DNA of 64,000 bases from contig JAFQQY010000004.1 in NCBI GenBank assembly GCA_017410365.1, positions 62,001 through 126,000 on the forward strand, read 5' to 3'. Shown here piece by piece: positions 801 to 18,940 of the stretch. Every line of letters starts with the position of its first letter. Within the stretch, counting starts at the first letter, position 1. The position numbers and the translations under genes are program-made. Under the pieces are notes generated by a model. That model was not told the origin of the DNA. It did no database searches and saw nothing but the letters and a program-made list of their open reading frames with translations. This stretch comes from Prevotella sp. (lineage in GTDB: Bacteria; Bacteroidota; Bacteroidia; Bacteroidales; Bacteroidaceae).

Positions 801-808
801 TAATTTTG
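801..808 (+). promoter_or_regulatory. -7 box of the exonuclease-rlmI-tilS operon
   Basis: TAATTTTG fits TAnnTTTG. It contains the in-frame TTG at 806, so translation cannot sensibly start there; the ATG at 833 is 24 nt downstream. No convincing -33 TTTG is seen. The box lies next to the divergent ftsK promoter. Confidence 0.6.
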
Positions 809-832
809 CAGTTCAAAACACTTAAACTTGCA

Positions 833-1492
833 ATGAAAAAGCAAATATACAACAAGTTTGACAAGAAGAAGATTTCCGAACTGCCTCGTGCGGTTTTCCC
901 TGGGCGTATAGTCGTTATACTTTCTGCCGGCGAAACCAAGAAGGCTGTCGATTATCTTCTTTCTCAGCCAATACTGGGAGTGGACACTGAGACAAGACCT
1001 TCGTTCAAGAAGGGCACCAACTATAAAGTATCTCTTTTGCAGGTGTCAGCTGCCGATATATGCTTTCTGTTCAGACTCAACCACACAGGTATTACGCCCG
1101 ATATCATTAGACTTTTAGAAGATACTACAGTTCCCAAAATAGGTTTGTCGTGGCATGACGACCTGTCTATGCTTCATAAGATAGCCCAATTCACCCCTGG
1201 CAGTTTTATTGACCTTCAGAACTGTGTCGGTAGAATAGGCATAGAAGACCTTAGTCTTCAGAAACTCTATGCTAACTTATTCGGAGGAAAGATAAGTAAG
1301 GGGCAGAGGCTTACCAATTGGGAGGCTGATGTTCTTTCCGATGGGCAAAAGCTTTATGCCGCTACTGATGCGTGGGCATGCATTAAGCTCTATGAAGAGA
1401 TATTAAGGTTAGAGCAGACACATGATTATGAATTAATAACAATCAAGACAGACGAGAATAATGTACAAGCAGATATATCTAAAGAAGGGTAA
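833..1492 (+). CDS. 3'-5' exonuclease domain protein (RNase D-like)
   Basis: DEDD-type 3'-5' exonuclease of about 219 residues. Exo I is visible as GVDTETRPSF, and the C-terminal part holds LYAATDAWACIKLYEEIL, the Exo III signature (YaatDaw) of the RNase D/WRN exonuclease fold. No HRDC domain follows, so this is a single-domain enzyme acting on RNA or DNA 3' ends; the substrate is unknown. I chose the ATG at 833 because the upstream TTG at 806 sits inside the promoter -7 box. The 3' end overlaps the methyltransferase gene by 32 nt, which suggests co-translation. Confidence 0.85.
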   Translation: MKKQIYNKFDKKKISELPRAVFPGRIVVILSAGETKKAVDYLLSQPILGVDTETRPSFKKGTNYKVSLLQVSAADICFLFRLNHTGITPDIIRLLEDTTVPKIGLSWHDDLSMLHKIAQFTPGSFIDLQNCVGRIGIEDLSLQKLYANLFGGKISKGQRLTNWEADVLSDGQKLYAATDAWACIKLYEEILRLEQTHDYELITIKTDENNVQADISKEG

Positions 1493-2642
1493 GGAGGAAA
1501 GTCTTCTTCGATTCCATCCGTGGGTTTTCTCAGGTGCTATTTCACATAGTGACAAAGGCATAGAGGAAGGCGACATTGTAAGAGTAATTACTTCCGACGG
1601 TCGTTTTATAGCCGTTGGTCATTACCAGATTGGTTCTATTGCAGTCAGAGTTCTCTCTTTCCGTGATGTAACCATTGACTCTGACTTCTGGCAGTCACGC
1701 CTGCAATCGGCAATCGACATGCGTGTAAAGCTTGGCATTGCCGACAGTCCTACCAACAACACCTACAGATTGGTTCATGGCGAAGGCGACAATCTTCCAG
1801 GCTTGGTTATCGACGTATACAGCAAGACTGCTGTCATGCAGGCACATAGTGTCGGAATGCACGTCTGCCGAGTGGATGTTGCAGAAGCGCTGGTTAAGGT
1901 TATGGGCAATCGTATTGAGAATGTTTATTATAAGAGTGAGACAACCCTTCCTTTCAAAGCGGAACTGGGTCAGGAGAACGGCTTCCTGTATGGAGGCAGC
2001 GAGGAGAACACAGCCGTTGAAAACGGCTTGAAGTTCTATGTCGACTGGCTTAAAGGTCAGAAAACCGGATTCTTTGTTGACCAACGAGAAAATCGCTCAT
2101 TGCTTGAGACATATTCTAAGGACAAGCGTGTGTTAAATATGTTCTGCTATACAGGAGGTTTCTCTTTCTATGCCATGAGAGGCGGTGCTAAGCAGGTTCA
2201 CTCTGTTGACAGCAGTGCAAAGGCCATAGAATTGACCCGAAAGAATGTAGAACTCAATTTTCCTGGCGACAAACGTCACGAAGCGTTCTGCGAAGATGCT
2301 TTCAAATATCTAGACAAGGCTGGTGGCGATTACGACCTTATTATTCTCGACCCGCCAGCTTTCGCCAAGCACCGTGCAGCCCTGCGCAATGCGCTAAAGG
2401 GATATACCCGTCTTAATGTCAAGGCATTCGAGAAAATGAAACCGGGCGGCATCCTGTTCACCTTCTCGTGCAGTCAGGTTGTTACTAAAGACAATTTCCG
2501 CAATGCCGTCTTTACAGCTGCTGCAATGGCGGGCAGAAAAGTTAGAATTCTTCATCAGTTGCATCAGCCTGCCGACCATCCAATTAACATTTATCACCCA
2601 GAGGGAGAATATCTTAAGGGATTAGTACTTTACGTAGAATGA
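1461..2642 (+). CDS. rlmI: Class I SAM-dependent rRNA methyltransferase, RlmI-like
   Basis: 393 residues, the usual length for RlmI/YccW-type 23S rRNA (cytosine-C5) methyltransferases. The N-terminus (about 1-75) looks like a PUA RNA-binding domain and starts with the family pattern of KKGKEESLLRFHPWVFSGAI. The Rossmann methyltransferase domain shows the SAM loop region NMFCYTGGFSFYA, the acidic VDSSAKAIE, the DPPAF motif near residue 295 and FSCSQ as the likely catalytic cysteine region. It begins inside the exonuclease gene and its stop overlaps tilS by 4 nt (ATGA). The exact target base is inferred from the family only. Confidence 0.88.
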   Translation: MYKQIYLKKGKEESLLRFHPWVFSGAISHSDKGIEEGDIVRVITSDGRFIAVGHYQIGSIAVRVLSFRDVTIDSDFWQSRLQSAIDMRVKLGIADSPTNNTYRLVHGEGDNLPGLVIDVYSKTAVMQAHSVGMHVCRVDVAEALVKVMGNRIENVYYKSETTLPFKAELGQENGFLYGGSEENTAVENGLKFYVDWLKGQKTGFFVDQRENRSLLETYSKDKRVLNMFCYTGGFSFYAMRGGAKQVHSVDSSAKAIELTRKNVELNFPGDKRHEAFCEDAFKYLDKAGGDYDLIILDPPAFAKHRAALRNALKGYTRLNVKAFEKMKPGGILFTFSCSQVVTKDNFRNAVFTAAAMAGRKVRILHQLHQPADHPINIYHPEGEYLKGLVLYVE

Positions 2643-3976
2643 CAAGTGTCAGCAATAGGGTTGTCCAGTATATCGAGCGCCATGGTTTGTTGAAAGCCAG
2701 TGGCAAATATATCGTTGCTCTTAGCGGCGGTGCCGATAGCGTGGCACTCCTTTTGTTGCTCCGTACGTTAGGCTATTGCGTAGAGGCAGCCCATTGCAAT
2801 TTTCATCTACGTGGTGCAGAGTCCGATCGTGATGAGGATTTTGTAAAGAACTTGTGCAACAGGCACGACGTACCTCTTCATCTCGTACATTTTGACACAA
2901 AGGAATACGCCAGCCTCCATAAGGTAAGCATAGAGATGGCGGCGCGTAATCTCCGCTATGCCTGGTTCAATCAGTTGGCTTCCGACATCCATGCCGATGG
3001 TATCTGTGTAGCCCATCATCGTAACGATAGCGTAGAAACATTACTCATCAATCTTCTTCGTGGCACAGGCATCCATGGATTAACAGGAATTCGCCCACTC
3101 AATGGCAATATCATACGACCCTTGTTATGTCTTTCGCGTGCAGAAATAGAACAATATCTCCATTCCATCGGTCAAGACTATATTACCGATAGCACCAATC
3201 TTGTTGATGATGTTGTCCGTAATAAGATTCGTCTTAACATCATGCCCCTTCTGCGTGAGATAAATCCAAGTGCCGATGAGTGCATTCAGCAGACTGCAGA
3301 AAGAATATCTGATGCCATTGCTGTTTACGATAATGCCATAGAAGCATCAGTAAAGCGTGTGTCATACAGCAAAGACAATTGCCTTCACATCGATATATCC
3401 AAACTCATATCTGAACCGTCTCCAGAATGCGTTCTGTTTAAGATGCTATCAAGTTTCGGATTCTCTCCTTTGCAGATTGAGAATATATCATCAAATCTTT
3501 ATTTGCCCACTGGTAGCATATTCTCATCATACAACTATGACTTGCTTTTCGATCGCGGTGAAATCGTTGTTTGCGAGAAGCATGCTCCGATGAAACCGTT
3601 TAAAATTCCAGAACCAGGCATATATGTAAGTGGAGGACTAAAATGGCGCGTTCAACAGGTACCAGTTGATGATACTTTTACTATTTCACTTGATAGTGAT
3701 GTTGCCACCATTGATGCCTCAAGAGTCAAATTCCCGCTCACGATAAGGAGTGTTGATAATGGCGACCGTTTCATACCATTTGGAATGAAAGGCTCAAAAC
3801 TTGTAAGTGATTATTTAACAGACCGTAAACGAAGTGTGTTTGAGAAAAAATCAAAGCTTGTTATCGCAGATTCTGAAGGAGATATTCTATGGCTTGTAGG
3901 TGAGCGGACGGACAATCGTTTCAGAATTGACGACAATAGTAAGGAAGCTCTTATATTAAGTTTTGAAAGACAATGA
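2639..3976 (+). CDS. tilS: tRNA(Ile)-lysidine synthase TilS
   Basis: Converts C34 of the tRNA-Ile(CAU) anticodon to lysidine using ATP and lysine, so the tRNA reads AUA. The PP-loop SGGADS is at residues 29-34, followed by family motifs around AHCNFHLRGAESDRDE and a HHRNDSVET segment. The C-terminal third (about 350-445) matches the TilS tRNA-binding domain, with RFIPFGMKGSKLVSDYL. The 445-residue length is normal. It is translationally coupled on both sides by ATGA overlaps. It is an essential gene in most bacteria. Confidence 0.95.
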   Translation: MTSVSNRVVQYIERHGLLKASGKYIVALSGGADSVALLLLLRTLGYCVEAAHCNFHLRGAESDRDEDFVKNLCNRHDVPLHLVHFDTKEYASLHKVSIEMAARNLRYAWFNQLASDIHADGICVAHHRNDSVETLLINLLRGTGIHGLTGIRPLNGNIIRPLLCLSRAEIEQYLHSIGQDYITDSTNLVDDVVRNKIRLNIMPLLREINPSADECIQQTAERISDAIAVYDNAIEASVKRVSYSKDNCLHIDISKLISEPSPECVLFKMLSSFGFSPLQIENISSNLYLPTGSIFSSYNYDLLFDRGEIVVCEKHAPMKPFKIPEPGIYVSGGLKWRVQQVPVDDTFTISLDSDVATIDASRVKFPLTIRSVDNGDRFIPFGMKGSKLVSDYLTDRKRSVFEKKSKLVIADSEGDILWLVGERTDNRFRIDDNSKEALILSFERQ

Positions 3977-4734
3977 AGACAACCATAATTCAATTCGACA
4001 TAACATGGGCTTCGCCTTCAGAGAATATCAGAAAGGCAGAACAATTATTGGCAGAGAATAGCGGTTCTGATTTATACGTATTGCCAGAGATGTGGGCAAC
4101 GGGATTTGCTACCGAACCAGATGGCATAGCAGAAGACGAAGAGACATCTCTTGCCCTTGCGTGGATGCGTGATGCATCAGAGAGATATAATTGTGCTGTT
4201 TGTGGCAGTCTTGCTATTCGTACATCTGAAGGAAGTTATGTAAACAGAATGTATTTTGTAGATGGCCGCAGTCGAAAAGTCAGTTACTATGACAAGCATC
4301 ATCTTTTCAGTTATGGTCACGAAGACCGCCATTATTCAGCCGGCAACAGCCATACAATAGTCGAATATTGTGGTCTGCGCCTATTGCTTCTCGTTTGCTA
4401 TGACCTTCGTTTCCCTGTTTGGAGTCGCTATGGTAATGGTGGCGTGTATGATGCTATAATTCTTGTAGCCAATTGGCCTGTTGCCCGTCAGCGTGCATGG
4501 CAGATTCTGACAAGAGCAAGAGCTATAGAAAATCAATGTTATATGATATGTGTCAACCGTGTAGGTTGTGATTCCTATTGCCGTTATGCTGGTGGCAGTG
4601 CCATTATCGAGCCTTTAGGAAAAACAATCTGCCGTTGCAAGTCTGACACAGTATATGTTGCAACGGCAGATATAGATATTGATTACCTTCAATCAAGGCG
4701 CTCACGCTTCAGAGTCCTTGATGATAGAGACTGA
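3973..4734 (+). CDS. Nitrilase-family amidohydrolase (omega-amidase YafV-like)
   Basis: 253 residues with the nitrilase catalytic triad: Glu39 in LPEMWATGF, Lys near residue 113 in YDKHHLFSYG and Cys near 145 in LLVCYDLRFPVW. The last motif and the YDKHHLF pattern are typical of omega-amidase/YafV enzymes, which hydrolyse alpha-ketoglutaramate-type amides as metabolite repair. No signal peptide, so cytosolic. It overlaps the tilS stop by 4 nt and is the last gene of the coupled run; the accessory island begins right after it. Confidence 0.85.
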   Translation: MKTTIIQFDITWASPSENIRKAEQLLAENSGSDLYVLPEMWATGFATEPDGIAEDEETSLALAWMRDASERYNCAVCGSLAIRTSEGSYVNRMYFVDGRSRKVSYYDKHHLFSYGHEDRHYSAGNSHTIVEYCGLRLLLLVCYDLRFPVWSRYGNGGVYDAIILVANWPVARQRAWQILTRARAIENQCYMICVNRVGCDSYCRYAGGSAIIEPLGKTICRCKSDTVYVATADIDIDYLQSRRSRFRVLDDRD

Positions 4735-4765
4735 TGCATGAATGCAGTGAAATGATTTTATATAC

Positions 4766-5326
4766 CTAATTTTCTTTTACTAATAATACTTTCACAGGCT
4801 TACCTAAATCCTTAATTAAAGTAATAGTATCCAAGTGTTTGTCTTCATTATAGTATTTATAATTATTGGGTATGCCAAACATCTCGATTTCTTTTTGATA
4901 AGAGAGCATTTCTTTGGTCCAAAAATTATAATAGCCAGAGATTGTTTTTAATTTGTAAATTGTTTGTAAGTCGATTGCCGTTTGGTTGCTATCGCAATCA
5001 CAGTCATATAAACATAAGTGTAAAGAGTCTTTTTTTATCAGAATCTTTGTATCACAATATAGGGTGTCTATTTGTTTTTTGGTTATAAAACACTTGTTCA
5101 ATTCACCGAAAAGTTCTTTATTTATAAATATAGTAGTATCAACATCTATTTGTTGAACACTTTTTGCAAACTCCTGGCAACTAACAGGGATGCTTGACTT
5201 TCTCCATCCTTTTAAATAACACACTTCAATCGTATCATTGGTTTTATCACTCTTATCATGTTGCCCTTTTGTGCATGAGAATGTAATTATAATAGATAAA
5301 ATTATTGTGATTAATGACTTTCTCAT
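4766..5326 (-). CDS. Small secreted lipoprotein of unknown function
   Basis: 186 residues. The first 18 or so (MRKSLITIILSIIITFSC) form a lipoprotein signal peptide with Cys in the lipobox position, followed by a charged KGQHDKSDK stretch, so the mature protein is probably lipidated. No family is recognised in the rest; it holds several Cys residues and a DCDCDSN segment. It lies 12 nt downstream of the 158-residue gene on the same strand and probably shares its transcript. The A+T-rich composition matches the island rather than the flanking housekeeping genes. An immunity or stress role would be a guess from position only. Confidence 0.65.
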   Translation of the reverse strand: MRKSLITIILSIIITFSCTKGQHDKSDKTNDTIEVCYLKGWRKSSIPVSCQEFAKSVQQIDVDTTIFINKELFGELNKCFITKKQIDTLYCDTKILIKKDSLHLCLYDCDCDSNQTAIDLQTIYKLKTISGYYNFWTKEMLSYQKEIEMFGIPNNYKYYNEDKHLDTITLIKDLGKPVKVLLVKEN

Positions 5327-5338
5327 AAATTTCTGATT

Positions 5339-5815
5339 TTAAAGATTATCTTTATAATAGTGACAGAAAATGTAACAACAAATGTCATTTATTTCAAACA
5401 GATAGAGAGTTTGGCTTTGTTTATGAATCCTGTATTTTATTTTAAACTGGTATTTCTTTTTCTCTTTTCTTTTTCTTTTATCAAAAATAATGGTAAGCGA
5501 ATCGTCTTTGATAAAACATTCCCCAAAACGGATTATACCATTTGGATATTGTATTTTAAACTTGTTATTACTATAAAATATAATTTTTTTGCAACTATGA
5601 CCACACCCTATTCCATTATTTTCAATCAATGAGTCTTCTCCGATTGAATATATATCAGTACCACTATAAAAAATGGTTTGTCTCTCTGTCCATTCTTTAT
5701 CAACAAGAATGGAATCATTACCATAAATATTCAAAAATATAAAAATATTTATACACAATAAAAAGAATCTATTTATAATGCCTTTTTCTTTAATAATTAA
5801 CGACATCTGAGTCAC
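5339..5815 (-). CDS. Hypothetical secreted or membrane-anchored protein
   Basis: 158 residues; translation may start at the first Met or at Met4 (MSLIIKEKG). A hydrophobic stretch near residues 16-31 (NRFFLLCINIFIFLNIYG) looks like a signal peptide or anchor. The rest is rich in Lys, Ile and aromatic residues with a CGHSC motif and a beta-strand-like pattern ending in paired Cys. No family is recognised. A -7 box lies upstream on the reverse strand. It heads a two-gene unit at the left end of the low-GC island, oriented opposite to the RHS scars. Confidence 0.6.
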   Translation of the reverse strand: MTQMSLIIKEKGIINRFFLLCINIFIFLNIYGNDSILVDKEWTERQTIFYSGTDIYSIGEDSLIENNGIGCGHSCKKIIFYSNNKFKIQYPNGIIRFGECFIKDDSLTIIFDKRKRKEKKKYQFKIKYRIHKQSQTLYLFEINDICCYIFCHYYKDNL

Positions 5816-5841
5816 GATTTTAACTGGATACTAATGTTTTG

Positions 5842-5849
5842 CAAATATA
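5842..5849 (-). promoter_or_regulatory. -7 box upstream of the 5339-5815 gene
   Basis: The reverse strand reads TATATTTG, matching TAnnTTTG, 27 nt before the first ATG of the reverse-strand pair. No clear -33 box. Confidence 0.5.
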
Positions 5850-5975
5850 ATAATTATTGAACATATTCTTTCGATTTTCAGTCCTAAATTATGAATGCCA
5901 AAATGAAAATTGATATTTAAAGGCTATTCTTTGAAATTAGTAGACTAATTATGAAAGAATAACCTGTCGTTTTAT

Positions 5976-5983
5976 TATATTTG
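5976..5983 (+). promoter_or_regulatory. -7 box upstream of the 6007 gene
   Basis: TATATTTG 23 nt before the ATG at 6007 fits the Bacteroidetes -7 consensus. The -33 box is not evident. Confidence 0.5.
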
Positions 5984-6006
5984 CATTAAATTCTAAAATT
6001 ATTGTC

Positions 6007-6567
6007 ATGAAGAAGATAATTGCATGTTTTATAATAGTCTTTATTCATTTATTGGCTATATTCATCTTATGTTATATGCCATTTGTGCAGATGAACCAAA
6101 TTGATACATGGGAGCAGATAGGTTCTTGTAAGGATGACAAAATCTTGAATTACAAAACACGTCTTCAACTCTATCCACATTGTTGGTTTATACATAAAGG
6201 AGATACATATACTGATATACCGTTGTTTGACAACGATAATGCCCAGTATAAGGCTGATATCAAATTTAATTGGGACAATAGCGTAACAATTAGAATGAAT
6301 AAATTGAAATATGATTTACATATAGAAAAGATTGAGATATCATCAAAAACTTTACCTATGAGTGATTATGATTACCGTATGAAGTTGCATGATACAGATG
6401 ATTCTCTATTCGTCTCAGTTGTTATGTACGATAAAAGCAATACCATAAGAGTATATAGACAGAAAAAGAAGATGCCTTATGGTGGGAAAAGGGTAGGTTT
6501 TATCATAGGGATAAATAATAAAGTATATTTTACAGGCCCCAAAGATAAAGAACGCTTTCACTATTGA
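6007..6567 (+). CDS. Membrane-anchored hypothetical protein, paralogue of the 9893 gene
   Basis: 186 residues with an N-terminal hydrophobic anchor (about 3-26), then a globular domain. It is clearly related to the protein at 9893-10465: both share a KGDTY motif, a DI-FNWDNS-TI motif in mid-protein, VYRQ plus KM-YG near residue 150, and a short C-terminus with TG and final Tyr. No known family is recognised. The two paralogues bracket the three RHS scars. Being membrane-anchored orphan genes beside toxin-tip remnants, they are candidate immunity proteins, but that is inference. Confidence 0.65.
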   Translation: MKKIIACFIIVFIHLLAIFILCYMPFVQMNQIDTWEQIGSCKDDKILNYKTRLQLYPHCWFIHKGDTYTDIPLFDNDNAQYKADIKFNWDNSVTIRMNKLKYDLHIEKIEISSKTLPMSDYDYRMKLHDTDDSLFVSVVMYDKSNTIRVYRQKKKMPYGGKRVGFIIGINNKVYFTGPKDKERFHY

Positions 6568-6613
6568 GTAATTACAAAAATCATGCCAATATAATTACAA
6601 GATAAATTTCGAA

Positions 6614-6621
6614 TAATTTTG
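6614..6621 (+). promoter_or_regulatory. -7 box upstream of RHS scar A
   Basis: TAATTTTG, 14 nt before the ATG at 6636. It could still drive the downstream 6982 gene. No -33 box was identified. Confidence 0.45.
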
Positions 6622-6635
6622 TTTATTAGAAAATT

Positions 6636-6985
6636 ATGAAAAAACCATTATCAACAATCATAACAATAGCATTCTGCCTAAACCTCAGCGGGCATAGCTC
6701 TTGTTTTATAGACAAGAGTAACATGATATACGAAAACAATGTCTTGAAAAAGATTCTTATAGATGGCGGATATATCACGTTTAACGATACGATACCGGAA
6801 TATCACTACTATCTGAAAGACCACTTGGGCAACAACCGCGTGGTGGTAAAGATTGACGGTACTGTGCTAATGCATATGCTAAACACAACATTGAAAACAA
6901 TATTGGAAATAAGAACTACCGTGTTTTAACCAATGTATCTCCTTTTAGTTTAATAAAAATTATAAATTCTGCCTATAAAAAATGA
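6636..6985 (+). pseudogene. RHS scar A: signal peptide + RHS terminal segment + toxin tail remnant
   Basis: The frame from 6636 encodes a signal peptide (MKKPLSTIITIAFCLNLSG), then a fragment typical of the end of Bacteroidetes RHS/YD-repeat proteins: NMIYENNVLKKILIDGGYI and YHYYLKDHLGNNRVVV, continuing KIDGT. The remaining core (normally leading to a HYYPFGG-type stretch) and most of the tip are gone. From 6857 another frame encodes a tail of about 42 residues (AKHNIENNIGNKNYRVL then PFSLIKIINSAYKK) whose TGA (6983-6985) overlaps the ATG of the next gene. The first 215 nt are nearly identical to scar C at 8590. It looks like a deleted RHS toxin gene. Confidence 0.75.
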
Positions 6986-7458
6986 GAGAACTATATCTAT
7001 TAATATCTCTACTATTTATTCCTTTAATTTCCAAAAGTCAAATTGATATTAAATTTGGTTTTGATGGAATGGAACATAATTCAACCGTAATGCTAAATGC
7101 GATGTGTGAATGTTTAGGTCAAAGCCACGTTTTTAACATGCTTGATTCTCTTACCTATTATGGATATTTTATATGCGAAATAGATAAAAATGGTTATGTA
7201 GTTAATGTACCTGAATACAGAACTCGTAGAACTCAATTATGTAGAAATGACCTAAACACAATAAATAAGTATTTTCATGAACATAAAATAAAAATGTCTA
7301 TAATATATTCGAACGATTCTGGAGAAAATGAAATATTTATTAAACAAGTGGTTATGAAAGAGATAAAACATCATTTCAGACACAACAAGACATATAATAT
7401 AACTGTAGGGTTTCCTGGTTATCTTTCACCTCCATGGGGAAAATATCTAAATTATTAA
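6982..7458 (+). CDS. Orphan candidate immunity protein behind RHS scar A (secreted)
   Basis: 158 residues with a Sec-type signal peptide (MRELYLLISLLFIPLISKSQ), so probably periplasmic or exported. No family recognised; an MCECLGQSH segment near residue 36 is noticeable. Its ATG overlaps the TGA of the toxin-tail remnant (ATGA), the arrangement expected of an immunity gene translated with its toxin. The frame is intact although the toxin is destroyed, which suggests the product may still be useful. The location hints that the lost toxin acted in the envelope or periplasm. The role is inferred from position. Confidence 0.65.
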   Translation: MRELYLLISLLFIPLISKSQIDIKFGFDGMEHNSTVMLNAMCECLGQSHVFNMLDSLTYYGYFICEIDKNGYVVNVPEYRTRRTQLCRNDLNTINKYFHEHKIKMSIIYSNDSGENEIFIKQVVMKEIKHHFRHNKTYNITVGFPGYLSPPWGKYLNY

Positions 7459-7479
7459 TTCTTTTAGTTTTATAATTTA

Positions 7480-7748
7480 TGAAAAAAATTAATATTAACA
7501 ATCATAACAATAGCATTCTGCCTAAACCTCAGCGGGCATAGCTCTTGTTTTATAGACAAGAGCAACATGATATACGAAAACTATGTCCTAAAAAAGATTC
7601 TTAATGATGACGGATATATTATGCTGAACGATACCAGAATATCACTACTATCAGAAAGACCACTTGGACAACAACCGCGTGGTGGCGGTGAAGATGGACG
7701 GTTTTTAATTGACACCACTATAAAGAGATTAGAGGAGGAAAAAAATGA
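7480..7748 (+). pseudogene. RHS scar B, frameshifted
   Basis: Second copy of the signal-peptide/RHS-end module. Compared with scars A and C it has a net one-base insertion just after the start codon and loses four or five bases at the NDTIPEY codons, so no frame reads through. DNA identity is still obvious (the stretch coding AFCLNLSGHSSCFIDKS is kept almost unchanged). It breaks off after the RVVAVKMDG codons. A last short frame (7713-7748) reads HHYKEIRGGKK and ends in a TGA that overlaps the ATG of the ankyrin gene, as in scar A; eleven codons alone could be chance. Confidence 0.7.
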
Positions 7749-8575
7749 AAAAGCTATTATGTATATTATTTTGTTTACTATTTGTTTCTGTCATAGATTA
7801 CGCGAGATACAAATTTAGATTCGAAATATTGGAATTCGAAATAAAACTTATACAGTTTTTTGTTTCTTGTACTGATAATGATAGAAACTATTTAGCATAC
7901 GACATAGAACTTTGGGAAAATACAGAAAATTGGGATTTTGCAAAAGCCATATCAAAAAATAATTTTAAAAGGGCAGAAGAACTATTAGAGCGCAATCATT
8001 ATGATATTGATTGTAGAGAGCCGAAATTTGGAAAAACCTTACTGTCATGGGCTGTATGGAATGACAACCCTGACGCTGTAAAATTTTTGCTTGAACATGG
8101 CGCAAATCCAAATGTTCATGACAAATGCTCGGGCATATCACCAATAACCGAGGCTGCAGGACTTTTTGTGTCTATAGAAATTTTAGAATATTTATTGCAA
8201 TATGGTGGCAATCCAAATGATTACGTTAAAGAAGATGAAATATTAACACATGGACGATGCGACAAAACACCTTTGACAACAGCATACTTAAGCTTAGAAA
8301 AGACGAAACTTCTAATTGAGGCAGGAGCAGACATTGACTTTACTGCTGACCCAGGGTATACTGCTCTATTTTGGGCTGCCAGCAGTACGTCATGGGCTGT
8401 TCTTGAATACTTGCTTAATAATTGTGACTTTGACTACAACAAGACATATGTCATAACAATACATAATGACACCTTATATTTAAAAGATTTGATTTTAGAT
8501 AATAATGTAGCAGCTCGGCATGACACAATTAGGGCTAAACGTATATTAAACTATGTAGACAAACATTTTAAATAA
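7745..8575 (+). CDS. Ankyrin-repeat protein, candidate immunity protein behind RHS scar B
   Basis: 276 residues. An N-terminal hydrophobic segment (about 1-18) may be a signal or membrane anchor. About four ankyrin repeats follow from residue 95 on, seen as GKTLLSWAVWNDNPDAVKFL, LLEHGANPNVHD, EYLLQYGGNPND, LLIEAGADIDFTA and GYTALFWAASS. Ankyrin proteins are common partners of polymorphic toxins. The ATG is preceded by an unusually good purine-rich stretch (GAGGAGG) and overlaps the TGA of a short tail remnant. Intact, with island-like A+T-rich composition. The immunity role is inference from context. Confidence 0.75.
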   Translation: MKKLLCILFCLLFVSVIDYARYKFRFEILEFEIKLIQFFVSCTDNDRNYLAYDIELWENTENWDFAKAISKNNFKRAEELLERNHYDIDCREPKFGKTLLSWAVWNDNPDAVKFLLEHGANPNVHDKCSGISPITEAAGLFVSIEILEYLLQYGGNPNDYVKEDEILTHGRCDKTPLTTAYLSLEKTKLLIEAGADIDFTADPGYTALFWAASSTSWAVLEYLLNNCDFDYNKTYVITIHNDTLYLKDLILDNNVAARHDTIRAKRILNYVDKHFK

Positions 8576-8589
8576 ATATTTTCATTTTT

Positions 8590-8890
8590 ATGAAAAAATC
8601 ATTATTAGCAATCATAACAATAGCATTCTGCCTAAACCTAAGCGGGCATAGCTCTTGTTTTATAGACAAGAGTAACATGATATACGAAAACAATGTCTTG
8701 ATAAAGATTCTCATAGATGGCGGATATATCACGTTTAACGATACGATACCGGAATATCACTACTATCTGAAAGACCACTTGGGCAACAACCGCGTGGTGG
8801 TGAACATGGGAAAGAATTTTGGATTATGAGAAGAAAAGAGCTGATGAATTTAGAGAACAATTAGATAAAAATAAGCATAAAAGACCGTGA
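8590..8890 (+). pseudogene. RHS scar C: signal peptide + RHS terminal segment + toxin tail remnant
   Basis: Third copy of the module. The frame from 8590 gives a 79-residue product: signal peptide MKKSLLAIITIAFCLNLSG, the RHS fragment through YLKDHLGNNRVVV, then six unrelated residues and a stop at 8827-8829. In another frame 8807-8887 encodes a hydrophilic tail (WERILDYEKKRADEFREQL then DKNKHKRP) ending at TGA 8888-8890, immediately before the next gene. The tail looks like the true C-terminus of a lost toxin. The deletion starts a few codons earlier than in scar A, so the 3' deletions were independent while the signal-peptide/RHS joint is shared. Confidence 0.75.
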
Positions 8891-8892
8891 TT

Positions 8893-9684
8893 ATGAAATT
8901 AAGGTATATATCATTGCACATAGAACCAGAGTATGACTCAGGTATTGATAAAAATTTTTCATATAAGTTTAGCGACAACAGCCGTTTTATTTCAAACTAT
9001 TTGTCAAAAGCTGTTCGTAAATTTAAAATAGAAATTGATAATTTCAAAATGATTAGCATATGTCCATCTGATAAAATCAATGAAATAACAGTGCGATTGC
9101 TTCCTTATGACGAAGTTTTAAAAATAGAAATTCCTTTTCATAAGTATGAACAACAATCTTATTTGGAAATCATGTCATGGGAAAAACGATATGAATATTA
9201 TTTAAGTTTAATAGAGAAAGGTTTCCGCATCGCTAATACTTATTGTGATATTCAATTAGATAGACTTCTTGAAATGACTGAACAGTTCAGAGCTAATAAT
9301 TACAAAAACGATTGGTTATTTGCAAAAAAAATATTAAGAGAACACGACTTGTATCTGTTCTTTAAATGTTATTTTACGCATTGTGATTTCAGATTAGAAT
9401 TGGAAGTTTATAATCATAATAAGAATAGTCTATTATTAAAAAAAATCGTTTTACAAACAGAACCCTCTGAATTTTGTTATGACTATCGATTCCGAAAAAT
9501 AGAAATGCTTCCTGATAAAATAATAATTTTGGATAATCATGAACCTGCTTTTGAATTTGACATTGAATTATTAAGCAAAGGTATATTTAATATAACTAGA
9601 TTAAACGATGAAAAAGAAAGGTTTAAAAGAGATATAAAAAAGAAGAACTATATTCAAAGGATAAAATTATTGAACGAGTTATAA
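8893..9684 (+). CDS. Orphan candidate immunity protein behind RHS scar C
   Basis: About 263 residues from the ATG at 8893; a GTG at 8887 is also in frame and would overlap the toxin-tail TGA by GTGA. There is no signal peptide, so it is probably cytoplasmic, unlike the product behind scar A. Rich in Lys, Asn, Ile and Tyr; the only pattern seen is an alternation of strands and helices. No family recognised. The frame is intact. Position directly after a toxin-tail stop makes an immunity role likely, but nothing in the protein itself proves it. Confidence 0.6.
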   Translation: MKLRYISLHIEPEYDSGIDKNFSYKFSDNSRFISNYLSKAVRKFKIEIDNFKMISICPSDKINEITVRLLPYDEVLKIEIPFHKYEQQSYLEIMSWEKRYEYYLSLIEKGFRIANTYCDIQLDRLLEMTEQFRANNYKNDWLFAKKILREHDLYLFFKCYFTHCDFRLELEVYNHNKNSLLLKKIVLQTEPSEFCYDYRFRKIEMLPDKIIILDNHEPAFEFDIELLSKGIFNITRLNDEKERFKRDIKKKNYIQRIKLLNEL

Positions 9685-9697
9685 CTTAATATTATGA

Positions 9698-9883
9698 TGG
9701 GCATTCTTAGGTATTTGCGAATTTAATATCCAAGCATATATACATATTAATACAAATGACAGTTTCGAAAAATGGTATACTTTCAAAAATGGCATACAAT
9801 CATGGTTTAATTCTCAATATCCAGGAGATGAGAACTTGAAACCAGGTATTTTGAATTTTAAATACAATTTTATACTGTTTTAA
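9698..9883 (+). pseudogene. Orphan coding remnant (61 codons, no start)
   Basis: Between the 8893 gene and the 9893 gene, one frame is open from just after a TGA at 9695 to TAA at 9881-9883 and reads like protein (ICEFNIQAYIHINTNDSF, KWYTFKNGIQSWFNS, GDENLKPGILNFKYNF). There is no plausible start codon at its head. It is probably the 3' end of a further lost toxin or immunity gene of this island. The family is unknown. Confidence 0.4.
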
Positions 9884-9892
9884 TTTACAACT

Positions 9893-10465
9893 ATGAAAAA
9901 AAAGAATTTGAAGAAAATTATTTGGATACTTATAATTTCTATCATCATAATTCTATATGTTTTATCTTATCTATCCTTTATTCGTATTAATGACATAGAT
10001 GCAGGTGCATATTGGGGACACAATTTCAATAACTCTATACGTGAACAAATACAAGAAAAGGTAACTTGCATTAAATTACATTTAAATAGTTTGTTTATTC
10101 GTAAAGGAGATACATATAAAAATATCACTTTTTTAGATAAAGATAGTATCCAACATGAGATGGATATCATATTTAATTGGGATAATAGCATAACAATTTA
10201 TAAAGATACTTCTGAATTTAACTTATATGTAGACCGTGTCACTTTTGATGAAAAAATAAGATTTATAGATGAAAGCAACCCTTATAAACCACTATGCTCA
10301 GTTGATTCTTTCTTTATCGGTTTTAACATATATGACAAAAACAATAATTATATAGTCGTTTATAGACAAAGTGAAAAAATGTATTACGGAAAACATCGAA
10401 TTGGATTTGAGGTTCAAATCAATGGCGATTCATTCTATACAGGAACAAGGCACTTTAATTATTAA
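9893..10465 (+). CDS. Membrane-anchored hypothetical protein, paralogue of the 6007 gene
   Basis: 190 residues; a Lys-rich start (MKKKNLKK) and hydrophobic anchor near 9-30 are followed by the same globular domain as in the 6007 protein. Shared landmarks are KGDTY, FNWDNSITIY, VYRQSEKM with YG, and a TG near the C-terminal Tyr. The pair differs enough to be old duplicates. It is the last gene of the island before clpC. Function unknown; immunity is a guess from the neighbouring RHS remnants. Confidence 0.65.
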   Translation: MKKKNLKKIIWILIISIIIILYVLSYLSFIRINDIDAGAYWGHNFNNSIREQIQEKVTCIKLHLNSLFIRKGDTYKNITFLDKDSIQHEMDIIFNWDNSITIYKDTSEFNLYVDRVTFDEKIRFIDESNPYKPLCSVDSFFIGFNIYDKNNNYIVVYRQSEKMYYGKHRIGFEVQINGDSFYTGTRHFNY

Positions 10466-10564
10466 AAGCAAAAGTCTTTGATTTGTTAACTAAATCACAA
10501 AACTTCGTTGCCAAAATCTTGTTCTATTCTATAGAAACTATAAAAAATAATATATATATATAAA

Positions 10565-10586
10565 ACGGGTGGATAAAACCACCCGT
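10565..10586 (-). terminator. Terminator of clpC
   Basis: Perfect 8-bp stem ACGGGTGG/CCACCCGT with a 6-nt loop; on the reverse strand it is followed by an A/T tract beginning with four T. It lies 35 nt past the clpC stop and may also serve the convergent 9893 gene. Confidence 0.75.
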
Positions 10587-10620
10587 TGCCTGTAAATGTA
10601 AATCTCAATTGTATGAGATT

Positions 10621-13149
10621 TTATTTCTTAACCTCAGCCTTTATCTTGTCACCATCTTTTACTATTGATATAGTATCGCCGGGCTTGATGTCGCCATTGA
10701 TAATCATTTCGCTGATTTCGTCTTCTATGTAGTTCTGGATGGCACGCTTTAGAGGGCGAGCACCGAATTGTACGTCGTAGCCCTTTTCTGCAACATATAC
10801 CTTTGCCTCTTCGCTAACCTCAAGTGCGTAACCTATTGACTCGATACGCTGATAAAGTCCGCGCAGTTCTATGTCAACAATTTTCTTTATTGCCTCTAGG
10901 TCTAGCTGGTCGAAGGTTATAATCTCGTCAAGACGGTTGAGGAACTCTGGTGAGAACTGCTTTGACAATGCTTTCTGAACGATGCTGCGTGCATGCTCCT
11001 TGTCCTGCTCGTTCATGGCAATGCCAACCTGTCCGCTGTTGAAACCGACGCCGCGACCGAAATCCTTCAGTTGACGAGTGCCTGCATTTGAGGTCATGAT
11101 GATGACCGTGTTTCGGAAGTCAACAAATCTGCCATTGCCATCGGTCAATCTACCTTCGTCGAGTACTTGTAAAAGCAGGTTGAACACATTGCCATGTGCT
11201 TTTTCCAATTCGTCGAGCAATACGATAGAGTAGGGGCGACGACGTACTTTCTCTGTCAGCTGTCCGCCTTCCTCGTAACCTACGTAACCTGGAGGTGCGC
11301 CAATCAGCCTGGAAACGTTGAACGACTCTGTATATTCGCTCATGTCTACTCGTATAAGAGCATCGCTTGAACCAAACATAAACTCAGCCAGTTTCTTTGC
11401 CAGATAAGTCTTTCCGACACCTGTTGGGCCAAGGAACATGAATGCACCGATAGGGTGGTTGGCATCCTTTAGGCCGACGCGGTTGCGCTGGATGGCTTTA
11501 ACCATCTTCTCTATGGCGGCGTCCTGAGCCACTACAACTTTCTTCAGCTCCTGTGACATGCCTTTCAGTCGTATGCCTTCTTGTTCTGCCATGCGTTGCA
11601 CAGGAACACCTGTCATCATCGACACGACATCTGCAACCTCAGATTCAGTGACAGTGGGTCTATTTCCGCTTTCTCCGCTCATCCACTTCTCGTTCATCAG
11701 CTTCAGTTCGGCTTCCAACCTTGTCTGTTTGTCGCGATAACCGGCTGCGAGTTCAAAGTTCTGATTTCTTACAGCGGCATTCTTTCTATCCTTGGCATGC
11801 TCTAATTCTGCTTGCTTTTCTGTAATCTCCTTTGGTATGCTGTTTTCGCTGAGGTGCATTTTCGAACCCACCTCGTCCATGGCATCGATGGCCTTGTCAG
11901 GGAACTGGCGGTCGCTGATGTATCGTTCAGTCAGTCTGACGCATGCCTCAAGAGCTTCATCGGTGTACCTTACCTGATGGTGATGCTCATATCTGTCTCT
12001 GATGTTCTGCAGGATAAGCAGTGTCTCTTTTGCGGATGTTGGTTCTACAAGCACTTTCTGGAATCTGCGTTCCAGCGCACCGTCCTTCTCAATGGAGTTG
12101 CGGTATTCGTCGAGTGTTGTCGCACCTATGCACTGTATCGTACCTCTAGCCAAGGCTGGTTTCAGTATGTTTGCTGCGTCCATAGAGCCTGGAGTAGAAC
12201 CTGCACCTACCAATGTATGAATCTCATCGATGAACACTATTATCTCCTGATGCTGTTCTATTTCCTTGATAAGTGCTCTTATGCGCTCTTCAAACTGGCC
12301 TCTGTATTTTGTGCCTGCCACAATGGCAGTCAGGTCTAGACTCACGATGCGCTTGCCAAAGAGCATTGGCGATGTAGTACGGTTGGCTATCATCTGCGCC
12401 AATCCCTCTACAATGGCACTCTTGCCTACGCCAGGCTCGCCGATGAGTATAGGATTGTTCTTCTTTCTTCTGCCCAGAATCTCGATAACTCGCTGTATCT
12501 CCCTTTCTCTGCCAACCACAGGGTCGAGCTTTCCTTCTGTGGCAGCAAGTGTAAGGTCAGTACCAAAGTTGTCGATAACCGGTGTAGAAGACTTTGTTTG
12601 TGTCTTTGTCGTATGTTGTGCCTTGGCACCGCTGCTGCCCACAGAATCGTTGGCAAACTCCTCGTCTTCATCCTCTTCAGGCAGTCCGAGTGCAGCTTCT
12701 ATTTCCTTGTTCTGCTTGTTAAGCAAAAGTGCCTTTACGTCGTCGTAAAATATCTCGTTCATTTCTAAAACCTGTTTAGCTCCGTTGTTAGCGTTGTCAT
12801 GCAGTATGGCTAGCAGAAGATGCTGCTCGTCAACCTTCTGCATGTGTTGCAGTCGTGCTTCCAGCACCGACAGCTTGAGTATATTGCTTGCCCTTTCGTT
12901 AAGCACCAGTTCTGATGCTGCAGGATAAGACAGCGGGTCGTCGTTTCTTACCCTGTCTTCAAGCTTTGTCTTAATGTTTTTATAGTCTATGTTCAGTCTG
13001 ACCATAATCTCAAGTGCCGGACTGTCTTTTAATCGCATCATGCCCAGCAAAAGGTGCTCCGGACCAACTGATGAACTGGCTAGTCGCGATGCCTCCTCTC
13101 TTGAGTATGACAAAATCTCTGACACTCTAGGTGAAAACTGATTGCTCAT
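10621..13149 (-). CDS. clpC: ATP-dependent Clp protease ATP-binding subunit ClpC
   Basis: 842-residue HSP100 unfoldase that feeds substrates to ClpP. Clp N-domain repeats at about 5-145, then an acidic linker (EEDEDEEF); first AAA+ module with Walker A GEPGVGKS at 237-244 and Walker [10 protein letters not shown]; a UVR-like coiled segment ([19 protein letters not shown]); second AAA+ module with [16 protein letters not shown] and LLDELEKAH. The middle UVR-like region marks ClpC rather than ClpB or ClpA. It is convergent with the island and divergent from gyrA. No CtsR-type operator was recognised upstream. Confidence 0.95.
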
Positions 13150-13245
13150 ATATAATAATGTGTTTATAAATTGCGTTCTTTATGCTATTTGCAAATACTG
13201 TGCCAAAGTCTGATTTATCCTTGCCATTTATCTGCAAGAAATAAC

Positions 13246-13333
13246 TGTGCCACTTCCGTTGTCTAACTGCACCATTTAGCACACCTAAGTGGGCCACTTA
13301 GCATACGCAAATGGACCGATTGGGAAAAAGAAA
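13246..13333 (+). repeat. Degenerate tandem repeat, 4 units of 22 bp
   Basis: In the clpC-gyrA spacer four consecutive units of exactly 22 nt begin at 13246, 13268, 13290 and 13312. Each opens with TG, two variable bases and CC, and three continue as CAyTT or CATTT (TGTGCCACTT, TGCACCATTT, TGGGCCACTT, TGGACCGATT). A weaker unit precedes them around 13222. Related arrays occur at 32644 and 49599. Function unknown. The rest of the 384-bp spacer holds only the gyrA promoter. Confidence 0.6.
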
Positions 13334-13396
13334 CTATATTTACAACTTAAAAATAAATAACAGAACACGGCTCTGTTGACAAAAAAACTTAATAAT

Positions 13397-13427
13397 TTTG
13401 CTGTATAATATTTTTTATGTAACTTTG
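13397..13427 (+). promoter_or_regulatory. gyrA: Promoter of gyrA
   Basis: TTTG at 13397-13400 and TAACTTTG at 13420-13427 with 19 nt between them. The leader to the ATG is about 100 nt, longer than usual in this window. Confidence 0.8.
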
Positions 13428-13533
13428 CATAAATTATGCGAAAGGCCGTCAGAAGCGCTTAAAATGCCCTCTAGCGGAGTCTGGAGCAAAAAATGGATAG
13501 ATAGAAACAACTAAAAAATAGAATAAAAATTAA

Positions 13534-16125
13534 ATGGATCAGACATTTGACAACGACAGAATAATTAAAATTAATATTGAAGACGAAATGAAGTCTTCAT
13601 ATATTGACTATTCGATGTCGGTAATTGTTGCACGTGCGCTGCCTGATGTGCGTGACGGATTTAAACCTGTTCATCGCCGTATATTATATGGTATGATGGG
13701 CATTGGTAACACAAGCGACAAACCACACAAGAAATGTGCACGCGTAGTCGGTGAGGTGCTCGGTAAGTATCACCCACACGGCGACAGCTCTGTGTATGGA
13801 GCATTGGTGCGCATGGGACAATGGTGGAACATGAGATATACATTGGTTGACGGTCAGGGTAACTTCGGTTCTATGGATGGCGACTCTCCAGCTGCCATGC
13901 GATATACAGAGTGCCGTCTGTCAAAGATGGGTGAAAGTGTGATGGACGACCTGGAGAAGGAAACCGTTGACATGGAACCTAACTTCGACAACACCCAGAC
14001 AGAACCAAGTGTAATGCCAACCAAGATACCTAACCTTCTCGTTAACGGTGGAAACGGTATCGCTGTGGGTATGGCTACCAATATGCCTACACACAATCTG
14101 GGTGAAGTGATTGACGGATGCTGCGCTTTCATTGACAATCCTGATATTGACACAGAGGGATTGATGCAGTATATACCAGCTCCTGACTTCCCGACTGGTG
14201 CTTATATCTACGGATTACAGGGCGTGCGCGATGCCTATGAAACAGGCCGTGGACGTATCGTAATGCGTGCAAAGGCAGAAATAGAAAGTGGCGATACGCA
14301 CGATAAGATTGTAGTCACAGAGATTCCTTATGGCGTTAACAAGGCAGACCTCGTGGCTTATATTGCAGACCTGGCAAATCAACACAAGATAGAAGGCGTG
14401 GCCAACGTTAATGATGAGACCGGCCGACAGGGTATGCGTATCGTGGTTGACGTAAAGCGCGATGCAAATGCAAATGTTCTGTTGAACAAACTGTTCAAGA
14501 TGACTGCGCTGCAGAGTTCATTCTCTGTAAACAACATTGCCCTTGTGCCAATACCAGGCACACACGGCAAGATGCGTCCTAAGATGCTTTCACTGAGAGA
14601 CTGTGTACGTTATTTCGTAGAGCATCGCCATGACGTAACTATTCGTCGTACAAAGCATGACCTCAAGAAGGCACAGGAGAGAGCACATATATTGGAAGGC
14701 TTGATAATTGCCGTGAACAACATCGACGAGGTGGTACGCATTATCCGCAATTCCAAGACTCCAAGCGATGCTCAACGCAATCTTGAAGAGCGCTTCAATC
14801 TTGATGAACTTCAGTCAAAGGCAATCGTCGACATGCGTCTGTCACAGCTTACCGGTCTGCGTGTTGAACAGTTGCATCAGGAATATGAAGACCTGATGAA
14901 GCTTATTGCAGAATTGCAGGAGATTCTCGATAATCCTGAGAAGTGCAAGGAGGTAATGAAGAACGACCTACTCGAGGTGAAAGAGAAGTATGGTGACGAG
15001 AGAAAGACAGAGGTTATTCCGTTTGACCATGAGTTTAATGCTGAAGACTTCTATCCAGACGACCCAGTGGTAATAACAATTTCGCACATGGGCTACATCA
15101 AGCGTACGCCATTGTCAGAATTCCACGAGCAAAGCCGTGGTGGAGTGGGGGCTAAGGCTGCACGCCACCGTGATAATGACTTTACAGAATACATCTATCC
15201 GGCTACAATGCACAACACGCTTCTCTTCTTCACTCAGAAGGGACGCTGCTACTGGCAGAAGTGCTATGAAATACCAGAGGGCGACAAGAACTCTAAGGGC
15301 AGGGCTATACAGAACCTGCTTAACATCGAACCGGATGATGCAATCAATGCTGTATTGAGAGTAAAGAACTTCGGCGACGAAGAATTCTTGCAGAGTCACA
15401 ACGTAATGTTTGCAACCAAGAACGGTATTATCAAGAAGACTTGTCTGAAAGAATATAGCCGTCCGAGAACAAATGGTGTGATAGCAATCAACATACTGGA
15501 AGACGACCGTGTGGTTGGTGTTCGCCTTACAAACGGCAACAACGAGATAATACTTGCTAATCGTAACGGACGCGCCATCAGATTCAACGAGCAAGATGTA
15601 CGACCAATGGGACGTGTTGCAACCGGTGTGCGTGGCATGACTCTCGATGGCGGTGATGACGAGGTGGTAGGAATGGTTTGTGTTAACGAACCAGAGAGCG
15701 AAACCATCATGGTGGTTAGTGAAAACGGTTACGGCAAGCGCACATCTATAGAAGACTACCGTAAGACAAAACGTGGCGGTAAGGGTGTCAAGACACTTGA
15801 AGTGACAGAAAAGACAGGTAGACTGGTTGCCATTAAGGTTGTGACCGATGAGAATGACCTTATGATTATCAACAAGAGCGGTATCCTGATTCGTCTGAAA
15901 GTTGCCGAGGTTAGAGTAATGGGACGTGCTACACAGGGTGTCAGACTGATTAACCTTTCAAAGAAGAACGATACCATAGCAAGTGTCTGCAAGGTTATGA
16001 CTTCAACAGATGAGGAAATCGAAGCAGAAGAGATGAACGATTCTGCCGACAATGCACAAGAAGGCATTGGCACTGCTGACATGGACAATGCACCTGTAGT
16101 TGACTTTACTGACGGAGACGAATAA
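13534..16125 (+). CDS. gyrA: DNA gyrase subunit A
   Basis: 863 residues; ATP-dependent negative supercoiling together with GyrB. The breakage-reunion domain carries the active Tyr124 in AAMRYTE. The quinolone region reads HPHGDSSVYGALVRMGQWW: Ser85 corresponds to E. coli Ser83, while Gly89 stands where E. coli has Asp87. The C-terminal beta-pinwheel holds a GyrA-box-like KRGGKGVKTL with Lys instead of Gln, and the tail is acidic, as often seen. GyrA rather than ParC is favoured by the box and by length. Confidence 0.95.
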   Translation: MDQTFDNDRIIKINIEDEMKSSYIDYSMSVIVARALPDVRDGFKPVHRRILYGMMGIGNTSDKPHKKCARVVGEVLGKYHPHGDSSVYGALVRMGQWWNMRYTLVDGQGNFGSMDGDSPAAMRYTECRLSKMGESVMDDLEKETVDMEPNFDNTQTEPSVMPTKIPNLLVNGGNGIAVGMATNMPTHNLGEVIDGCCAFIDNPDIDTEGLMQYIPAPDFPTGAYIYGLQGVRDAYETGRGRIVMRAKAEIESGDTHDKIVVTEIPYGVNKADLVAYIADLANQHKIEGVANVNDETGRQGMRIVVDVKRDANANVLLNKLFKMTALQSSFSVNNIALVPIPGTHGKMRPKMLSLRDCVRYFVEHRHDVTIRRTKHDLKKAQERAHILEGLIIAVNNIDEVVRIIRNSKTPSDAQRNLEERFNLDELQSKAIVDMRLSQLTGLRVEQLHQEYEDLMKLIAELQEILDNPEKCKEVMKNDLLEVKEKYGDERKTEVIPFDHEFNAEDFYPDDPVVITISHMGYIKRTPLSEFHEQSRGGVGAKAARHRDNDFTEYIYPATMHNTLLFFTQKGRCYWQKCYEIPEGDKNSKGRAIQNLLNIEPDDAINAVLRVKNFGDEEFLQSHNVMFATKNGIIKKTCLKEYSRPRTNGVIAINILEDDRVVGVRLTNGNNEIILANRNGRAIRFNEQDVRPMGRVATGVRGMTLDGGDDEVVGMVCVNEPESETIMVVSENGYGKRTSIEDYRKTKRGGKGVKTLEVTEKTGRLVAIKVVTDENDLMIINKSGILIRLKVAEVRVMGRATQGVRLINLSKKNDTIASVCKVMTSTDEEIEAEEMNDSADNAQEGIGTADMDNAPVVDFTDGDE

Positions 16126-16172
16126 ACAAAGCTAGAATAAAAAATTATTGTCAAACTAAAATTTATAAGAAA

Positions 16173-17414: not shown

Positions 17415-17445
17415 TTAAAAAGATTGTAGAACAAACCTTATATTA

Positions 17446-18639: not shown

Positions 18640-18699
18640 GTAGGCAATTAGTATCTTGTCTCATTAAGTTTTAGAGAATATAAACTTCAAATAATAAAT

Positions 18700-18724
18700 A
18701 AAGTTCGCCATTGTGCGAACTTTT
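18700..18724. terminator. Bidirectional terminator between TPR genes and tRNAs
   Basis: Stem AAAGTTCGC (18700-18708) with GCGAACTTT (18715-18723), loop of 6 nt, T-rich on the + side (TTTTATTATA) and on the reverse side. It serves the TPR operon and the reverse-strand tRNA unit. Confidence 0.75.
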
Positions 18725-18733
18725 ATTATATTG

Positions 18734-18806: not shown

Positions 18807-18837
18807 AACAAATAAAGATATCGAGGGAAAAAAGAAG

Positions 18838-18910
<73 letters not shown>

Positions 18911-18940
18911 TTTTAAACTGCTCTTCTTTTTTAGCGAATG

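Follow-up and report, generated by a model that had tools for sequence, protein, structure and literature searches.

Within the stretch of Prevotella sp. DNA analysed here (64,000 nucleotides; hereafter the window), the region at about 4766-10465 is, judged from its sequence, very probably an orphan-immunity (polyimmunity) locus derived from RHS toxin-immunity cassettes, in which the toxins would have been deleted and the immunity genes kept together with the 3' ends of the toxin genes. The bank genes probably protect the bacterium against the toxins of rivals. An earlier sequence-only reading had proposed an orphan immunity bank built around three copies of a short RHS-derived module; our analysis supports that interpretation and extends the bank beyond the limits first noted. 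Modules, stubs, and genes fill the interval 6634-10465 almost completely (gaps of 0-19 nt, borders approximate), in the order module, stub, 6982; module, stub, 7745; module, stub, 8893; stub, 9893. Genes are named here by their first coordinate. L numbers denote stretches of relatives' DNA and G numbers relatives' genomes (G195 = L047; G117 = L042 and L049; G167 = L067; G238 = L105); aa, amino acids; ORF, open reading frame.

6634..6866, + strand: module A, signal-peptide-like start and truncated RHS end (repeat and protein matches)
6875..6985, + strand: stub A, putative last ~36 residues of an RHS toxin (C-terminus match, L047 RHS)
6982..7458, + strand: putative orphan immunity gene A, 158 aa, N-terminal hydrophobic segment (homologue L047:8455-9036)
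7478..7702, + strand: module B, frameshifted (repeat and two-frame protein match)
7708..7743, + strand: stub B, IDTTIKRLEEEK tail, presumed toxin end (recurs in L067)
7745..8575, + strand: putative orphan immunity gene B, ankyrin repeats, 276 aa (Pfam Ank; homologue L069:7792-8661)
8588..8807, + strand: module C (repeat)
8810..8890, + strand: stub C, putative last ~27 residues of a Tox-URI2 toxin (L042 and L101 toxin matches)
8893..9684, + strand: putative orphan immunity gene C, 263 aa, signal peptide absent on visual inspection (the family occurs downstream of Tox-URI2 toxins or stubs)
9698..9883, + strand: stub D, remnant open frame with no module before it (match to the end of RHS ORF L105:7794-9047)
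9893..10465, + strand: putative orphan immunity gene D, 190 aa (homologue L105:7247-7864 behind an RHS ORF)

Toxin stubs and the repeated module

Each module was originally described as being followed by an unrelated intact gene. The genes are indeed intact, but the DNA between module and gene is toxin stub (in copy B, a tail of unproven origin). We read all frames between each module and its gene, and tested the match scores against shuffles. Stub A aligns over 36 residues, free of gaps, to the extreme C-terminus of a 2308-aa RHS protein in G195 (score 79; reached by 0 of 1000 shuffles, maximum 53); its frame differs from that of the module, and its TGA overlaps the ATG of 6982 by two bases (ATGA). 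Over 25 residues, stub C matches the end of a Tox-URI2 (PF15653) toxin piece in G117 (L042; score 102, 0/1000, maximum 49) and, over a slightly longer match, a toxin in G164 (score 68, 0/1000, maximum 48); it also aligns to residues 413-440 of the 440-aa toxin of L101, and it is out of frame with module C. The gene behind each of the G117 and G164 matches is an 8893 homologue. Stub D, which ends 9 nt before 9893, matches the C-terminal end of the 418-aa RHS ORF L105:7794-9047 in G238 (score 82, 0/1000, maximum 53), and the gene after that ORF overlaps it and is a 6007/9893 homologue. For stubs A, C, and D, the matched toxin C-terminus belongs in each case to a gene followed by a homologue of the gene that stands behind the stub in the window. 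Swapped pairings fail: stub A against Tox-URI2 scored 18, with 975 of 1000 shuffles as good, and stub C against the L047 RHS protein scored 30, with 194 of 1000 as good.

The 12-residue tail of stub B, IDTTIKRLEEEK, also precedes a 56%-identical ankyrin gene in G167 (L067), with a protein score of 44 (0/2000 shuffles) and a DNA score of 24.5 (0/1000). The stubs appear to mark earlier toxin deletions, firmly for A, C, and D and more weakly for B. L067 itself (8094-8258, 9472-9636, and 10498-10658) carries a different leader of ~160 bp, 86-92% alike, three times before different small genes, one of which is that 56% homologue; this is a second repeated-leader bank with another origin, and its leader holds the start of what we take to be a REP-type transposase.

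The module forms direct repeats at 6634-6853, 7478-7697, and 8588-8807, in agreement with the copies first placed at 6636, 7480, and 8590. Pairwise DNA identity is 96.4% over 220 bp for A/C, 87.2% over 234 bp for A/B, and 86.8% over 227 bp for B/C. A search of the window's own draft genome (89.4% complete) returned these three copies and no others, at E values of 1e-111 to 1e-74, which rules out a chance repeat. The module consists of a signal-peptide-like start fused to a piece of RHS core, of which 43 residues align at 67% identity with part of an intact 1276-aa RHS protein. It is not the last RHS segment, as the sequence-only reading had it: it ends within the RHS-associated core, short of the YYPFGG..KELDR.HGLDWYDYGAR part present in intact relatives. 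Copy B was correctly called frameshifted, its protein match falling into two frames, and it carries 20 private substitutions and 2 private indel events over the 213 columns where A and C agree. When we searched 200 genomes of the genus with the module, matches occurred in 32, the window's own included.

Two other accounts of the module were rejected: an inserted element with terminal inverted repeats, none of which were reported around the copies; and a signal peptide common to relatives' full-length RHS genes, as the L009 and L018 matches reach the module's first residues but have other RHS sequence there. It is also highly unlikely that the module is a functional, stand-alone family of small secreted proteins, with the genes behind it incidental. 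Copies A and C do keep an open frame from the ATG through the module (ORFs of 97 and 79 aa) with a signal-peptide-like start; however, copy B is frameshifted, the A/C codon differences (4 nonsynonymous, 3 synonymous) give no sign of constraint, the module ends within a domain and is followed by toxin stub DNA, and its matches in the fetched stretches (not every match was fetched) all lie within RHS genes or their pieces.

The bank genes and their relatives

The bank comprises seven genes, which an all-against-all comparison sorted into six sequence families. Every family has a homologue beside or within some RHS locus, and homologues of 6982, 7745, and 8893, for which the earlier reading had suggested this check, stand directly behind intact RHS-type genes (in L047, L069, and L101, respectively). 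With the exception of ankyrin repeats, no Pfam family was above cut-off for any of the seven genes. The ORFs of 6982, 7745, and 8893 (158, 276, and 263 aa) are all open, as first reported.

The 6982 homologue overlaps the end of the 2308-aa RHS gene in L047; this RHS-linked relative was the only one among 298 other genomes of the genus, and two unlinked relatives were found among 398 other genomes of the family. The 7745 homologue begins about 18 nt behind the RHS ORF at 4583-7774 in L069; a search of 199 other genomes gave it and two more relatives at E<=1e-12. Two relatives of 9893 were found by protein search in 199 other genomes, in addition to the one in G238. The products of 6982, 9893, and 6007 begin with hydrophobic segments (by eye), so the toxins they match may act at the envelope. 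One 6982 relative lies in L108 (G458; 6979-12296, minus strand), which encodes eight small proteins, several with secretion-type starts, with no RHS gene in sight; this is possibly another polyimmunity locus.

Relatives of 8893 were present in 8 of 298 other genomes of the genus and at 11 loci in a named collection. L092, L095, L097, and L098 are the same contigs as loci from the genus search and were counted once, and L044 and L100, where the front of the gene is absent, were left out, which gives 14 distinct loci with readable upstream DNA, the window and L101 included. In 12 of these 14 (L042 and L096 share one locus and are not independent; L040 is counted on a weak match), a Tox-URI2 toxin or its C-terminal stub lies directly ahead of the gene. 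The toxin or stub ends 1-5 codons before the gene start, stop included, in 11 of the 12, L101 being the twelfth. Nine of the 12 toxins are truncated to 27-104 residues, and those of L093, L098, and L101 reach into the RHS core or are cut by the contig edge. As nine of the 12 toxin or stub loci are orphans with stubs, 8893 orphans may outnumber working pairs. The 8893 family, which has no Pfam match, appears paired to Tox-URI2 by its stub. The lack of a signal peptide in the 8893 product (by eye) fits a nuclease-type toxin (URI fold) acting inside the cell. Zhang et al. 2012 (PMC3482391) name Imm9/12/39/44 as immunity families associated with Tox-URI2; for 8893, no Pfam family exceeded the cut-off, nor did any immunity family appear at E<=0.1 in 8 members of its family, and a structure model of 8893 gave partial beta-sheet matches only.

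The remaining features of the bank lie ahead of module A:

4766..5326, - strand: immunity-like gene, 186 aa (homologues in RHS loci L042 and L020)
5339..5806, - strand: immunity-like gene, 155 aa (homologue L049:6380-6865)
6007..6567, + strand: immunity-like gene, 186 aa, paralogue of 9893 (34% to 9893; homologue L105:7247-7864)
6614..6621, + strand: promoter-like TAnnTTTG ahead of module A (pattern scan), presumably the Bacteroidetes -7 motif

Homologues of 4766 occur inside an RHS bank (L042:7219-7809, 28%, E 9e-15) and at L020:104-661 (22%, E 1e-8), by coordinates directly behind the RHS ORF L080:5979-9194. The 5339 homologue (53% over 142 aa) lies between a mini-RHS gene, as described below, and the gene that follows a full RHS gene; the 6007 homologue (E 1.7e-12) overlaps its RHS ORF. 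Five bank genes, 6007 to 10465, are on the + strand, and 4766 and 5339 are on the opposite strand. The paralogues 6007 and 9893 bracket the array in direct orientation, with 77% DNA identity over 113 bp (6179-6291 against 10086-10198). No intact toxin gene or cassette lies between the bank genes, which are separated just by truncated modules and stubs, about 60 aa long at most. The flanks are of housekeeping type (exonuclease, methyltransferase, PP-loop ATPase, and carbon-nitrogen hydrolase; Clp-type ATPase and gyrase A). A search of the window's own draft genome for a main rhs gene gave no match to TIGR03696 or PF20041 and no further module match better than E 0.25, in a draft that is 89.4% complete, with the PF20041 control silent and the sensitivity of TIGR03696 to relatives' RHS proteins unchecked.

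Mini-RHS genes and the proposed origin of the scars

The joint of signal peptide to RHS end had been taken to imply a pre-existing mini-RHS form, and such genes, with a full toxin behind the RHS end, are present in L101, L042, and L041 (440, 352, and 328 aa). We surveyed 55 ORFs with an RHS end in 42 fetched stretches (a few module matches were not fetched), identifying signal-peptide-like starts by a crude rule of our own rather than by SignalP. Five of the 55 combine such a start with an RHS end that begins within 120 residues, and a sixth candidate runs off a contig end. The clearest mini-RHS gene, that of L101, is additional to these five, with a signal-peptide-like start by eye, an RHS end, and a Tox-URI2-type toxin, followed after 8 nt by an 8893 homologue that is itself cut by the contig end. 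Mini-RHS toxin genes with their own start and a signal-peptide-like segment are thereby documented in Prevotella-type and Bacteroides genomes.

Two of the five have full-length tips behind the RHS end, which measure 276 residues in L041:9254 and 272 in L042:8252. These lengths bear on whether the short ORFs at 6636 and 8590 could still function as mini-toxins paired with cognate immunity genes. Their secretion-type start and the immunity-type gene next to them would suit that role, but their toxin remnants comprise 27-36 residues and are out of frame with the module, making it extremely improbable.

The other three of the five are shorter behind the RHS end (L049:4503, L054:1464, and L087:5861, with 17, 88, and 35 residues, respectively), with the next gene 5-9 nt away. 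In G117, the intact mini-RHS gene of L042 and the 97-aa scar of L049 share 331 bp at 99.1% identity, from about 53 bp before the ATG through YYPYGG, and then diverge; the gene behind the scar has 60% identity over 180 aa with the gene after a full RHS gene in L096. One locus is also common to L042 and L096, with 2133 bp of flank at 93% and 1035 bp of stub plus 8893 homologue at 98.8%. In L096, base 5769 is the last of a piece of RHS end (88 bp, 83% to both the L042 mini-RHS gene and the L049 scar), and the toxin stub starts at the next base, 5770, whereas at the same locus in L042 the toxin continues for about 27 more residues. Read together, this pair shows a toxin whose front was cut away at an RHS end, as in the window, and scars of this kind recur in other species.

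RHS ends are often repeated within single related loci. Paired, 89-90% identical truncated RHS ends with different small genes after them, an arrangement like that of the window, occur in L053 (G146; 8674-9028 and 10296-10649) and in L054 (G042; 1652-1871 and 2674-2893); L052 (G061; 7466-18915) has a long run of repeated RHS ends with differing tips and small genes. Separately, genes upstream of RHS genes at L047:15943-16887, L049:13863-14873, and L056:2125-3246 share an apparent C-terminal domain, which we take to be of the type IX secretion system (T9SS) type and which hints at an export route for RHS proteins.

Under the proposed origin, the ancestral cassette would have been a small secreted RHS gene (signal peptide, RHS end, and variable toxin) followed by an immunity gene. 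Each toxin would have been lost by one internal deletion, from just past the RHS end to the last toxin codons, leaving module, stub, and immunity gene; module and stub would now be debris, and the immunity genes would be kept as presumed protection against neighbours that deliver the matching RHS toxins. We infer this order of events, selection for protection, and the binding and neutralisation of toxins by the products. The earlier proposal that cassettes were duplicated and their toxins then deleted holds in its second part, with deletions visible as stubs A, C, and D (B is weaker); whole cassettes were not duplicated, because the copies have nothing but the 5' module in common, their toxins and immunity genes being unrelated.

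Several observations weigh against this origin. An intact cassette was not seen in any strain of this species. Stub B comprises few residues and is the weakest case because no matching toxin was found. Relatives of 6982 and of 7745 each adjoin an RHS gene in one of three cases, and neither of the two protein-search relatives of 9893 is visibly beside one (one is too near a contig end to tell). Downstream genes never occurring next to RHS genes had been named as grounds for refutation; they do occur there, but two of the three relatives of 6982 and of 7745 also occur without RHS, although this is expected of orphans. No stub precedes the 8893 homologue in L046 or L102, and the L040 match counted among the 12 scored 41. 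In a neutral simulation with the substitution load of module B, the ankyrin ORF stayed open in 28 of 2000 runs, and in 0 of 2000 with the indel rate added, which points to maintenance of 7745 by selection but assumes that module B and the ankyrin gene were together throughout the divergence of module B.

The left breakpoints of the three scars (window 6634-8812) also count against it: they fall within about 20 bp in module coordinates, unlike those of scars in other genomes, and independent deletions explain this clustering poorly (chance ~0.0025 if deletions start randomly over about 700 bp; our own estimate, 3x(20/700)^2). A copied left end or module-anchored recombination may possibly lie behind it. 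In a variant compatible with the deletion origin, the module is a recombination pad, where incoming cassettes pair and join illegitimately at the module end (homology-facilitated illegitimate recombination, or C-terminal displacement), and the scars are by-products of capture rather than later deletions. We regard this variant as possible but tentative. Near-identical modules ahead of unrelated genes, the clustered breakpoints, and the repeated RHS ends of many related loci speak for it, as do L096 and L095/L039, where another RHS gene and its own next gene stand ahead of the stub and 8893 homologue, and a displacement model is described in part of Kirchberger 2017 (PMC5361080). That model, as set out there, leaves no anchor before each old immunity gene; furthermore, stub D has no module, and scars elsewhere break at other points. 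A doubtful further step would make the module a reusable capture pad, with cassettes entering by homology and toxin removal at the module end being recurrent and near site-specific, turning weapon into shield. If true, the 3' stub of a toxin would be a general tag for matching orphan immunity genes to toxins from sequence alone.

Comparison with known systems

The comparisons below draw on parts of the papers cited. Polyimmunity loci, orphan Rhs immunity genes, and C-terminal displacement are already in print (PMC3482391, PMC10539506, PMC8125069, PMC5361080, PMC3150448, PMC3967940). As far as a partial literature search goes, what is new here is the serial arrangement of module, stub, and immunity gene, its mini-RHS origin, and the stub-based pairing of immunity families without Pfam matches to toxins.

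The bank resembles heterogeneous polyimmunity loci (PMC3482391), in which unrelated immunity genes stand in tandem with small gaps and mostly in one orientation; Bacteroidetes examples and ankyrin immunity proteins are listed in the same source. Its passages on these loci describe them as never interrupted by toxin genes or cassettes, whereas the window has toxin fossils between its genes that would reveal their origin. Toxin remnants among immunity genes have a precedent, a toxin fragment being reported within an immunity gene cluster of the type VII secretion system (PMC9484751).

A recombinase-linked rAID array (PMC12247911) was also considered. The Bacteroidales host and the array of orphan immunity genes are shared with rAID, which is described in gut Bacteroidales and as aimed at effectors of the type VI secretion system (T6SS). 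No recombinase was seen among the bank genes or six scanned flanking genes (window 806-16125), and the homologues found belong to RHS loci, so we consider this identification very unlikely. Immunity arrays of the Vibrio cholerae T6SS (PMC5361080) are similar in that immunity genes outlast displacement of the effector, with a 3' effector end remaining in one example; those arrays begin with one effector, and their anchor is described as unrepeated, whereas in the window the anchor recurs before three genes and an active toxin gene was not found. Orphan Rhs immunity proteins of Serratia (PMC10539506) likewise come from genes without a matching toxin, and one was shown there to protect; these orphans follow a complete Rhs-RhsI pair of the T6SS, and the part of the account that describes them mentions neither scars nor stubs.

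The orphan rhs-CT/rhsI and cdiA-CT/cdiI modules (Poole 2011, PMC3150448; Koskiniemi 2014, PMC3967940) are like the window in combining displaced toxin 3' ends with immunity genes and in homology that ends at a fixed core motif. As described in the relevant parts, those modules keep their toxins, usually without start and export signals; in the window, the toxins are apparently deleted (stubs A and C retain only ~27-36 residues), and it is the front piece that has a start and a signal-peptide-like segment.

The origin of polyimmunity has mostly been inferred from finished arrays, and the window locus seems to preserve an intermediate stage: as many as four genes (three of them firmly, the fourth weakly) would still bear the end of their original toxin, and a stub can link an immunity gene to its toxin with no experiment, as for 8893 and Tox-URI2. 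The scar locus thereby suggests how banks of protectors can arise. Poole et al. 2011 (PMC3150448) ask, in the section concerned, why toxin fragments stay if cells collect immunity genes; the window appears to present the opposite outcome.

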